Assembly: GCA_947475175.1 (NCBI GenBank)
Contig: CANJLN010000006.1
Location: 1 to 46,908 of the forward strand
Direction: 5' to 3'
Length of the DNA: 46,908 nucleotides
From: Alphaproteobacteria bacterium
GTDB lineage: Bacteria; Pseudomonadota; Alphaproteobacteria; Paracaedibacterales; CAIULA01
Shown here: positions 259 through 45,568 of the stretch, in pieces
Layout of the letters: every line of letters starts with the position of its first letter
How positions within the stretch are numbered: the first letter of the stretch is position 1
Notes under the pieces: model-generated
Database searches by the model: none
Seen by the model: only the letters and a program-made list of their open reading frames with translations
What the model was told of the DNA's origin: nothing
Program-made: the position numbers and the translations under genes

Positions 259-326
259 TGTCATTCTCGGGCTTGACCCGAGAATCCATGGACTTCAAGA
301 TCCTCGGAACAAGTCCGAGGATGACA
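259..326. repeat. Composite palindromic repeat, modules B then A
   Basis: A 68-nt element bounded by the inverted ends TGTCAT and ATGACA. Its left half is a module B hairpin (TTCTCGGGCTTGACCCGAGAA). Its right half is module A (CCTCGGAACAAGTCCGAGG, the reverse complement of the A core). It has the same two-module layout as the copies inside recF and the bepA-like gene, with a longer linker between modules. Confidence 0.85.
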
Positions 327-431: not shown

Positions 432-483
432 TGTCATCCTCGGACACCACATTTGTCATCCTCGGACTTGTTCCGAGGATCTC
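432..483. repeat. Half copy plus full copy of palindromic module A
   Basis: A truncated left arm (TGTCATCCTCGGAC, 432-445) is followed directly by a complete module A hairpin at 454-483. The half copy stops before the palindrome's second arm, so it looks like a remnant of an older or incompletely copied repeat. Confidence 0.8.
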
Positions 484-12946: not shown

Positions 12947-14398
12947 TTGCTTTTCTCTATGTCATTTTCAGACTCTCCACTGTCATCCTCGGACTTGTTC
13001 CGAGGATCTAAGGATTCTCGCAATAAATGCGAGAATGACAAGACGGGGAAAATAGGTTGCGCAAAAGGTCTTTTGTTTTTACTACTCTTCCTTTTCCTCA
13101 AACCAACAGTCTCCTTTGGCACAGATATCCCTGTTGGAAATTTTATTGTTGATGATGAAATTGAATCAACGATTACTCAATGGTTACAAGATATATTTGA
13201 TGTTGCTGGCATTAGAATAAAGCCACAAGTGCTCATTCTTGTTGATCCAAACGTCAATGCTGGCGCTACATTTGGCGGTCAAGTTATTGTTTTCACAGGA
13301 CTCATTTTGAAATGTCAGAATGCCGCTCAAATCCTTGGCGTTCTGGCACATGAATCAGGACACATTGCCGGTGCCCATACAGCAAGAATTGATGCTGCTC
13401 AACAACAAGCTCTCGTCCCTGCTATTGCTTCTACTCTTCTAGGAGGAGCAGCCGCTCTTCTAACAGGAAACACAGCTCCTCTTCTCGCTGGCGCCGCTGG
13501 AGGATTACAGGTGTTTGAGCGCGGTCTTTTAAAGTATTCACGAACCCAAGAAGAAACTGCTGATAGTGCAGCCCTCAAATACCTAGAACTTCTTAATTGG
13601 CCATCAGAGGGGCTATATGAATTTTTAAATCTGCTCGGCAATAATTACAGTGGTCAAATTGACCCTTATACCTCAACGCACCCTTTGTCAGAAGACAGAA
13701 GATCAAAAATACATCTCTATATCACTCAACAAAAGTCTGCGAAAAATACCAAGGTCCCTGAAAAATACGAACTGCAGTTTCAAAGAATCAAAGCAAAAAT
13801 CAAAGGATTCATGGAACAACCTCAAAAAACGCTACGTGACTTACCAGCAAAGGATACATCCATCGCAGCACGTTATGGACGATCCATTGCTCTGTATCGA
13901 CTGGGTAAACTTCAAGAGGCTTTTGTTGTGTTGGATCAATTACTCAAAGAATTTCCCAATGACCCTTATTTTCTTGAATTAAAAGGGCAAATTTACTTTG
14001 AAACTGGAAAAATTAAAGACGCGGTTGTTTGCTACAGAGCATCCGTTAAACAACGCCCTGGGGCGCCCATTCTGAATTTAATTCTAGCGCACGCTTTAAT
14101 TGAAGCATCTCCTCAAAGAAACGAACAAGAATTGAACGAAGCGATACAAGCTTTAAAGCTCACAACCGAAAAAAATGCTGAGAATATCTTTGCCTGGAGA
14201 TTGCTAGCCAGTGCTTATGGGAAAAACCAACAACCGGAACATGCCGCCGGTTGTCTTGCTGAAGAAGCATGGTTAAAGGGAGACACCCATATGGCCAAAG
14301 CTCAGGCGCAGAAAGCCATCAAATGTTCGAATTCGGCCATTGCTAAACGAGCTCAAGACATTCTTAATGAAACGAAGAATGAAGCAGCAAGGTCGTAA
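12947..14398 (+). CDS. bepA: BepA-like periplasmic M48 metalloprotease with TPR repeats
   Basis: Zinc metalloprotease of the M48 family with C-terminal tetratricopeptide repeats. E. coli BepA/YfgC has this build and maintains outer-membrane beta-barrel assembly. The HExxH motif is HESGH at residues 135-139, the third zinc ligand lies in QEETADSAAL near residue 204, and TPR-like helices fill 270-480. The length of 483 aa matches BepA. AAAAGGA at 12931-12937 sits 9 bases before a TTG start; an ATG lies at codon 5. A 60-nt palindromic repeat encodes residues 12-32, between the start and the signal-peptide core (GLLFLLLFLFL, 41-51), giving an odd polar N-terminal extension. How this longer N-region is handled by Sec is unclear. 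Probably co-transcribed with rne. Confidence 0.88.
   Translation: MLFSMSFSDSPLSSSDLFRGSKDSRNKCENDKTGKIGCAKGLLFLLLFLFLKPTVSFGTDIPVGNFIVDDEIESTITQWLQDIFDVAGIRIKPQVLILVDPNVNAGATFGGQVIVFTGLILKCQNAAQILGVLAHESGHIAGAHTARIDAAQQQALVPAIASTLLGGAAALLTGNTAPLLAGAAGGLQVFERGLLKYSRTQEETADSAALKYLELLNWPSEGLYEFLNLLGNNYSGQIDPYTSTHPLSEDRRSKIHLYITQQKSAKNTKVPEKYELQFQRIKAKIKGFMEQPQKTLRDLPAKDTSIAARYGRSIALYRLGKLQEAFVVLDQLLKEFPNDPYFLELKGQIYFETGKIKDAVVCYRASVKQRPGAPILNLILAHALIEASPQRNEQELNEAIQALKLTTEKNAENIFAWRLLASAYGKNQQPEHAAGCLAEEAWLKGDTHMAKAQAQKAIKCSNSAIAKRAQDILNETKNEAARS
12981..13040 (+). repeat. 60-nt A+B palindromic element inside the bepA-like gene
   Basis: Bounded by TGTCAT and ATGACA. Module A (CCTCGGACTTGTTCCGAGG) is followed by module B (TTCTCGCAATAAATGCGAGAA). 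Read in the gene's frame it gives SSSDLFRGSKDSRNKCEND with no stop. It is almost identical to the copy in recF. Confidence 0.92.
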
Positions 14399-29795: not shown

Positions 29796-31013
29796 TCAAC
29801 CAAGTGTTAGTGTTGCATTGTCTACACAGAAGAATTGTCCTTGCCCCATAAGGGTTTCAAACAACAAAGGATCCGTCCCTGTCAACCAGGTGTGGACAGA
29901 ACCTTTAAACTCTTCTTGATGTGTATTTTGTAAAGCACATATCTGATCGAACAGTACCACACGGTGATGAAAATCTAAATGGGCAATTACGTCATCGAGT
30001 AATAAAACAGTCAATCGATCATCATTTCGAACTTTGTGCTGAATAAAAGAAAATAAAGCCGCAATTAAGAGAATTTTTTGCTCGCCTGTTGAACAAAAAG
30101 AAGCCGTCATATTCTTGGTTTGGTGAATCATTTCCCAGTCGCTTCGATGAGGTCCGATTTTGGTTGTGCCGCTTTCTCTGTCTGTATTTCTATTTTTTGT
30201 GAGAGCTTCCATAAATCGAGCTTCCACATTCACAGCATAATCATTTTCAATCCAAGAATCGATCTCCCCTATCATTTGGCTTTGAAACCGAGGAAACAAG
30301 GGGTGTTGATATTCTTGACCTTGATTCAATTTTTTCATCAGCTGTTGACGGGCAACAGCAATGGCAACACCCTGAGAAGCGATTTGTTCCTCGAGTGAAC
30401 TCAGCCACAAAGGATCTCCGCCTTGTCTGAGCACCATCAATCTTTCTCTTAAAGCATGATCATAACGATTGAGTCGTTCACTATGAAGTGGGTCTTCTCC
30501 ATAAACAAAACGGTCAACAAACTTGCGTCTGTCAGAAGGAGACTCAAGGAAAAGACGATCTGTTTCAGGGGTTAACCAAAAAACAGTCAGCCATTCTGTA
30601 AATGGCCCCTGCCCTTTGACAGATTCATGTTGAATTTTGTGAATTCTTTTCTCACTACCCGTGAGCGGATTGTTTTCAAGGCCGGTTGAAAGCTGAATAT
30701 CTTGGCTCAAAATGATTGAGCTTGCCCACAAAAGACCTTTTTCAAATTTTACTTTTTCCGCAGTGTCATTCTCGCATTTATTGCGAGAATCTATAGATCC
30801 TCGGAACAAGTCCGAGGATGACGAAGAAAGGTCAGATAATTTAGCGCCGCGTAACCCGCGTCCCGGAGAAAAAAGAGAAAGCGCTTCCAACACATTCGTC
30901 TTCCCAGCTCCGTTTGGACCAGTTAGCACAACAGGAGCTGAGCTCAGAGTTAGATCCAAAGAAGTATAATTTCTAAAATGATGCAGAGAAAGATGGGTAA
31001 TCGCCTGCATCAT
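29796..31013 (-). CDS. recF: RecF recombination mediator carrying a palindromic-element insert
   Basis: SMC-like ATPase that helps load RecA at single-strand gaps. Walker A is GPNGAGKT (residues 32-39); the C-terminal signature and Walker B region are in FCSTGEQKILLIAALF and LLLDDVIAHLD. At 405 aa it is longer than typical RecF (about 360-380). Part of the excess is residues 64-84, encoded by the 60-nt palindromic element. The insert falls between LSPGRGLRGAKLSDL and the next core strand, a surface loop just after the P-loop helix, and leaves the frame open. The enzyme is therefore probably still functional. Confidence 0.93.
   Translation of the reverse strand: MMQAITHLSLHHFRNYTSLDLTLSSAPVVLTGPNGAGKTNVLEALSLFSPGRGLRGAKLSDLSSSSSDLFRGSIDSRNKCENDTAEKVKFEKGLLWASSIILSQDIQLSTGLENNPLTGSEKRIHKIQHESVKGQGPFTEWLTVFWLTPETDRLFLESPSDRRKFVDRFVYGEDPLHSERLNRYDHALRERLMVLRQGGDPLWLSSLEEQIASQGVAIAVARQQLMKKLNQGQEYQHPLFPRFQSQMIGEIDSWIENDYAVNVEARFMEALTKNRNTDRESGTTKIGPHRSDWEMIHQTKNMTASFCSTGEQKILLIAALFSFIQHKVRNDDRLTVLLLDDVIAHLDFHHRVVLFDQICALQNTHQEEFKGSVHTWLTGTDPLLFETLMGQGQFFCVDNATLTLG
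30764..30823 (-). repeat. 60-nt A+B palindromic element inside recF
   Basis: Reverse complement of the element at 12981-13040, so relative to the coding strand both lie in the same direction. It differs by a few bases in the linker and at the last end base. In the recF frame it reads SSSDLFRGSIDSRNKCEND without a stop. It adds exactly 60 nt, so the frame is preserved. Confidence 0.92.
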
Positions 31014-37128: not shown

Positions 37129-37136
37129 TCAGAATC

Positions 37137-37219
37137 GTCATTGCGAGGAGCTTCGCTGTGTGGCAATCCAGGAAAAGTAAAACTGGATCGCCACAGCTTT
37201 TCGAGCTTCGCGATGACGG
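37137..37219. repeat. 83-nt imperfect hairpin repeat between convergent genes
   Basis: GTCATTGCGAGGAGCTTCGC...GGCAATCCAG pairs imperfectly with CTGGATCGCCACAGC...GCGATGAC across an 11-base loop. It belongs to the same family as 2334-2415 and sits in the 100-bp gap between two convergent stops, again suggesting a terminator-like position. Confidence 0.8.
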
Positions 37220-37850: not shown

Positions 37851-37891
37851 CCATACTATCGTCCTCGGAACAAGTCCGAGGACGATAGTGG
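37851..37891. repeat. Module A palindrome with extended stem, downstream of trcR
   Basis: ACTATCGTCCTCGGA and TCCGAGGACGATAGT form a perfect 15-bp stem (37855-37889) around ACAAG. The core matches module A, but the flanks changed together so that pairing is kept (GTCCTC...GAGGAC). It lies 30 bases after the trcR stop and could terminate that transcript. Confidence 0.8.
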
Positions 37892-39888: not shown

Positions 39889-39919
39889 TGTCATTCTCGG
39901 GCTTGTTGCGAGAATGACA
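39889..39919. repeat. Single module B palindrome upstream of gltA
   Basis: TGTCATTCTCGGGCTTG is followed by TTGCGAGAATGACA. The outer arms TGTCATTCTCG and CGAGAATGACA are perfectly complementary over 11 bases. It ends 33 bases before the gltA ATG and so may lie in the gltA leader. Confidence 0.8.
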
Positions 39920-39952
39920 TCGTGGAAAATATTAGTATAGAAAGCAATTTTT

Positions 39953-45438: not shown

Positions 45439-45568
45439 AGATCCTCGGAACAAGTCCGAGGATGACAGATGTGGTCTAAGGATGACGAATGTAGTCTTTA
45501 AGGATGACAGTCACGTAAATTAGTGTGAAATAAAATCGGGTCATCCTCGGACTTGTTCCGAGGATCTA
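45439..45568. repeat. Inverted pair of module A palindromes with tandem fragments between
   Basis: A complete module A at 45439-45467 and another in opposite orientation at 45541-45568 frame a short tandem series. The series has units beginning AGGATGAC at 45459, 45479 and 45501, spaced 20-22 bases apart. It fills most of the 192-bp gap between uvrD and prmA. The series looks like partial duplications of the repeat's right edge. Confidence 0.75.

Follow-up and report, generated by a model that had tools for sequence, protein, structure and literature searches.

The recF Locus and Its Insert

The window, which is the whole analyzed stretch of 46,908 nucleotides, carries recF on its minus strand, and a dimer of two short palindromes lies in frame within this gene. 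The features of the locus are as follows.

29796-31013, minus strand: recF, an intact open ORF of 405 aa with the insert
30764-30823, minus strand: B+A head-to-head dimer in recF, with TGTC/CGTC tags outside, coding for SSSDLFRGSIDSRNKCEND
30796-30822, minus strand: unit B, GTCATCCTCGGACTTGTTCCGAGGATC, with a 9-bp stem and a 5-nt loop
30765-30791, plus strand: unit A, GTCATTCTCGCATTTATTGCGAGAATC, with a 9-bp stem and a 5-nt loop
30735-30827, minus strand: the whole segment unlike relatives, residues 63-93 against nine residues in the same-genus RecF

The two units are different palindromes spaced 4 nt apart, with a CGTC tag flanking B and a TGTC tag flanking A. Neither unit was matched by chance in 100 shuffles each (0 matches), and the element is identical over 29-31 nt to copies elsewhere in the genome. 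The first-pass annotation had placed a palindromic repeat in recF at 30764-30823 without a break in the frame; the element lies exactly there, and the recF ORF is open through it, with SSSDLFRGSIDSRNKCEND as RecF residues 65-83. The insert peptide stretches in RecF are SSSDLFRGS and SSSDLFRGSIDSRNK. In the RNA of the coding strand, the dimer forms two hairpins, each with a 9-bp stem and a 5-nt loop, and an outer GUC/GAC closing, for which the free energy is -27.1 kcal/mol and z is -5.45.

RecF was compared with its counterparts in seven family members (G001-G007), among which G001 is a same-genus relative whose recF contig matches Candidatus Paracaedibacteraceae bacterium clean674. The protein is 81% identical to the RecF of G001, and the invariant RecF residues are conserved. 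In the alignment, the insert residues are absent from all seven family members and from eight further genomes, which bears out the earlier reading of the segment as an addition to RecF. The proposed size of about 60 nt and 20 residues fits the dimer itself, but the changed segment is larger, because residues 63-93 replace nine residues of the G001 protein, so that RecF is longer by 22 aa net (66 nt). Nor does the insert stand right after the P-loop helix, as had been stated; the helix comprises residues 38-46, and the insert begins approximately 17 residues beyond its end.

An AlphaFold model built with 24 RecF sequences has a mean pLDDT of 88.7, and its best PDB matches are the RecF structures 5z69, 5z68, and 2o5v. 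Within this confident fold, pLDDT falls below 50 only at residues 69-90, corresponding to the insert, between short helices (residues 59-71) and a strand (residues 94-102). Among the RecF proteins compared, the loop at the insert site shows natural variation in both length and sequence. Because it is the sole segment of the model with pLDDT below 50, the insert looks like a disordered loop at a point of natural length variation, and its position as the low-confidence segment of a good model is consistent with solvent exposure. We infer that RecF would be produced with the loop and would work with it.

The Repeat Family across the Genome

The genome, whose closest named relative is Paracaedibacteraceae, is a draft of 66 contigs that was reassembled from stretches to 1.55 of 1.57 Mb, and 1,515 genes (90% coding) were called with our own codon-hexamer model. 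A search of the 1.55 Mb gave 256 units in 198 arrays, that is, in about 200 places, and a control pattern consisting of the unit pattern backwards gave zero matches. The arrays comprise 57 close '+-' dimers, one '-+' dimer (units at most 15 nt apart), and 140 singles, many of which form tail-to-tail pairs 13-207 nt apart. The family with intergenic and in-gene copies that had been proposed is thus real, with 198 arrays and approximately 30 genes. Near-perfect B units number 181 here, compared to at most 7 in any of the 384 other genomes in a sample of 385 from the class. Near full-length dimer matches are confined to this genus; elsewhere in the order, some genomes contain single units.

The dimers have the ends GTCAT...ATGAC and a spacer that is mostly 4 nt. 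The tag base before GTC is T in approximately 82% of them, the tag G is present in approximately 98%, and the unit tail is mostly CTA and sometimes CCA. In several copies, arms recognizable by profile extend beyond the 60-nt core, for 12-24 nt on the right and up to about 40 nt on the left. Some copies, such as that in Fmt, follow partial units of 21 nt in tandem, which read as SSSDLTL. Further members of the family in the window are listed below.

12981-13041, plus strand: second in-ORF dimer, residues 13-31 of the M48 peptidase/TPR ORF at 12947-14398, in the same orientation and frame as the recF copy
261-324, minus strand: intergenic dimer with a longer spacer
455-481, plus strand: single unit B, about 130 nt from the copy at 261-324
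37857-37889, no strand assigned: diverged single unit
39889-39921, no strand assigned: A-like single unit
45440-45466, minus strand: single unit B, tail-to-tail with 45540-45566
45540-45566, plus strand: single unit B, tail-to-tail with 45440-45466

A second palindromic family, GTCATTGCGAGGAGC..., which codes for LDRHASLAMT/RHCEERSDAAIQ, is represented by approximately 30 units in the genome, including those at 2375-2414 and 37136-37175 of the window and at L087:19758-19772. In CoxB, a copy of this second family adjoins a recF-type dimer near the N-terminus. At the second site of AddB (L201) and the second site of the NTP transferase (L210), G001 has the LDRHASLAMT...RHCEE family in place of the recF-type element of this genome, and TilS (L207) of G001 contains a remnant of the recF-type family plus the second family. 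The same apparently permissive loops have been struck in frame by two families in sister genomes, as read from the aligned sequences.

In-Gene Copies and Their Host Genes

Approximately 30 predicted genes carry dimers or single units, all in the sole open frame. The host proteins, which were named by reading of Pfam families, include SfsA, an IspE-type kinase, a TilS-type PP-loop protein, a tyrosine recombinase (xerC/D-type), a Mur ligase (murD), a heptosyltransferase, RecF, an AddB-like nuclease (two dimers), an AddA/UvrD-like helicase, cysteinyl- and glycyl-tRNA synthetases, a YgfZ/CAF17-type protein, an NTP transferase, a CCA/polyA polymerase, and Fmt, among others. A clean gain was defined as an in-frame addition missing from at least two relatives. 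In alignments to G001, G003, and G005, 16 genes including recF showed clean gains of 12-53 net residues; addA, addB, the xerC/D-type recombinase, glyS, cysS, fmt, and cca are among them. HIBCH, a beta-lactamase-like gene, and the second AddB site (net 7-12 aa) were excluded, and PheT (DPQVKPEDH) was rejected as a host on account of a weak match and a net difference of merely 5 aa. FolC and other N-terminal cases were also left out because their true start is uncertain; for the copies in the M48 peptidase, CoxB, an Omp85-type protein, a ligand-gated-channel-like protein, and FolC, the true start may be downstream of the insert. In the ORF at 12947-14398 of the window, the dimer follows a TTG start and precedes what looks like the signal peptide of the M48 peptidase/TPR protein, and it may have displaced the original start codon.

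Some in-gene copies (L103:12757-12812, L130:10946-10971, and L064:9536-9591) stand behind tandem partial units of 21 nt or runs rich in serine (SSSDLTL), giving inserts of approximately 30-50 residues. At L062:17756-19960, ccmF and ccmH are fused in a single frame, as they are in two relatives, and the linker has a single unit in this genome only; a fusion made by the element was rejected, since the fused frame is already present in G001 and G005. The AlphaFold model of YgfZ (mean pLDDT 59.8) was discarded, its conserved parts being poor too.

Two in-gene sites, in the heptosyltransferase and a UbiG-like methyltransferase, are common to G001, so that not all insertions are recent. Most of the others are missing in G001 and therefore arose after the species split or were lost in G001. 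The absence of most of the checked insertions from the same-genus relative indicates that the family was mobile fairly recently. Of the earlier description of the family as active, this fairly recent mobility stands, and present-day activity may be presumed.

Selection on Frame, Stops, and Orientation

The arrays are strongly depleted in genes, where 38 of the 198 are found, and dimers lie inside ORFs more often than singles do (23/57 vs. 15/140, p = 6e-6). All 23 in-gene dimers have a frame-keeping length (56 or 65 nt), compared to 18 of 34 elsewhere (Fisher p = 4.6e-5). In-frame stops are found in none of 19 in-gene copies, as against 6 of 17 intergenic copies matched in length (p = 0.006). 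Since each strand of the consensus dimer contains a single open frame, every in-gene copy is in the same frame. The B-first orientation is adopted by 20 of 22 in-gene dimers, whereas intergenic dimers flanked by co-directional genes are divided equally (9:9, p = 0.0056). In-gene copies thus pass a selective filter for a frame-keeping length, a stop-free frame, and mostly one orientation.

The opposite orientation of the dimer likewise has an open frame. The even split of intergenic dimers between co-directional genes makes tolerance of the peptide or its mRNA a more likely cause of the orientation bias than insertion bias. The mean hydropathy of the two encodable peptides is similar (-1.30 vs. 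-1.42) and does not account for the bias. A lineage-specific, recently mobile CGTC-REP family that survives in genes almost exclusively in one orientation, one encodable peptide being tolerated and the other not, could be proposed tentatively, at somewhat less than even chances.

Comparison with Known Palindromic Repeats

According to Di Nocera et al. (2013; PMC3733652), CGTC-tagged REPs have a CGTC or TGTC tag, an 8-9 bp stem in which the first two pairs are A-T, a 4-5 nt loop, and a tail of 3 unpaired nucleotides with the consensus CCA. They are mostly head-to-head dimers with the tags outside, occur mostly in alphaproteobacteria, and apparently have no dedicated transposase. In-gene dimers code for 20-30 aa, many of them in repair genes, and RPE-6 and RPE-4 are equated with CGTC-1 and CGTC-4. 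The same report cites Rickettsia proteins carrying RPE-1 as expressed in vivo. In R. japonica, extended RPE-4/6/7 with ATGAC form inserts that measure 68-192 bp and lie in solvent-exposed regions, and one locus can hold different RPE groups in different Rickettsia species (PMC3767692).

The element described here shares with the CGTC-REPs (PMC3733652) the CGTC/TGTC tag, a 9-bp stem starting with A-T/T-A pairs, a 5-nt loop, the head-to-head heterodimers, the alphaproteobacterial host, in-gene dimers of approximately 20-30 aa, and the lack of a linked transposase. It differs in its new lineage, the mostly 4-nt spacer, the 21-nt serine-rich partial repeats before some copies, the strong in-gene orientation bias, which is not among the CGTC-REP features cited above, and a tail of mostly CTA and sometimes CCA rather than the CCA consensus. 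With nearly all of the features tested in agreement with those reported, the element is a new, large, lineage-specific member of the CGTC-REP superfamily.

The similarity to RPE-4/6/7 (PMC3767692) extends to ATGAC-bearing palindromes in frame in conserved genes, to extended arms, to different families at one locus in related species, and to target types that overlap by name (aminomethyltransferase/YgfZ-type, RecB-family exonuclease, and DNA helicase). By this likeness of descriptions, the element would work like RPE-4/6/7. However, the host belongs to a different order, being Paracaedibacteraceae-related and not Rickettsia, and most sites here are missing in the same-genus relative, whereas the listed Rickettsia sites are common within the genus (PMC3767692). 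RAYT-associated GTAG REPs and REPINs are also inverted dimers of short palindromes at high copy number, but the tag here is (T/C)GTC and not GTAG, and there is no linked Y1 (RAYT) transposase. The open-access literature searched contained no description of the element in Holosporales or Paracaedibacteraceae. The earlier suggestion of a possibly undescribed family is therefore upheld for this lineage and not overall, since the family fits the published CGTC-REP superfamily (PMC3733652) that includes RPE-4 and RPE-6. The earlier claim of an RPE-like insertion in the coding sequence of a conserved protein is confirmed by the in-frame recF dimer that is absent from relatives, with precedents in PMC3767692 and PMC3733652.

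Origin of the Insert and Alternative Explanations

The only Y1_Tnp gene of the genome is on contig C45, which holds no unit. No linked transposase was seen among the Y1_Tnp genes of this genome, and a RAYT transposase was rejected as the mobilizer because the contig of the sole gene holds zero units. A longer MITE with defined ends was also rejected, since the similarity fades at about 40 nt in the left arm and about 12-24 nt in the right arm with no fixed terminus. We infer that movement relies on an enzyme acting in trans. It is highly probable that the recF insert is a CGTC-tagged head-to-head heterodimer (REP/RPE-like), non-autonomous and probably selfish, present in about 200 places, with a host protein that would be functional with the loop.

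Recruitment of the insert, with the loop or the mRNA hairpin tuning RecF activity or recF expression, is improbable. The strong mRNA hairpin and the inserts in recF, addA, addB (two dimers), and the xerC/D-type recombinase could be taken in its favor, as could the similar repair-gene pattern noted by Di Nocera et al. (PMC3733652). However, equally many inserts are found in tRNA synthetases, fmt, cca, murD, ispE, and others, a statistical excess of repair genes is not established, and the in-gene cores are near-identical to intergenic ones and mostly missing in relatives. It is more improbable still that recF is a pseudogene or that its mRNA or protein loses the segment, given the 405-aa open frame, the 81% identity to the same-genus RecF with conserved residues kept, and the Rickettsia proteins with RPE-1 cited as expressed in vivo in PMC3733652. 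Natural variability of the RecF loop in length and sequence would favor a native loop with chance resemblance to the repeat, but this has only a negligible probability, for the exact identity over 29-31 nt with other genome copies, the zero chance matches in shuffles, and a genome-wide family with the same peptide in approximately 30 unrelated proteins refute this reading.

For the preferred reading of a non-autonomous, probably selfish dimer, the following course could be envisaged. The palindromic element would be copied by some enzyme and inserted widely, both within and between genes. In-gene copies would survive where the frame is kept, the element's open frame is used, and the site is a permissive, probably exposed loop. 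Given such a site and the open frame, the host protein would stay functional with an extra disordered loop.

Implications

A Paracaedibacteraceae lineage is added here to the hosts of coding palindromic repeats, which are best known from Rickettsia, and comparison with orthologues documents its large set of in-gene copies. Because most insertions are missing in the same-genus relative, the family is suited to tests of selfish-repeat additions to essential proteins and of the favored coding orientation. If the peptide-tolerance reading is true, the bacterium would amount to a natural experiment that scans its whole genome for protein loops permissive to insertion, in which the same loops would have been struck by two unrelated repeat families in sister species.
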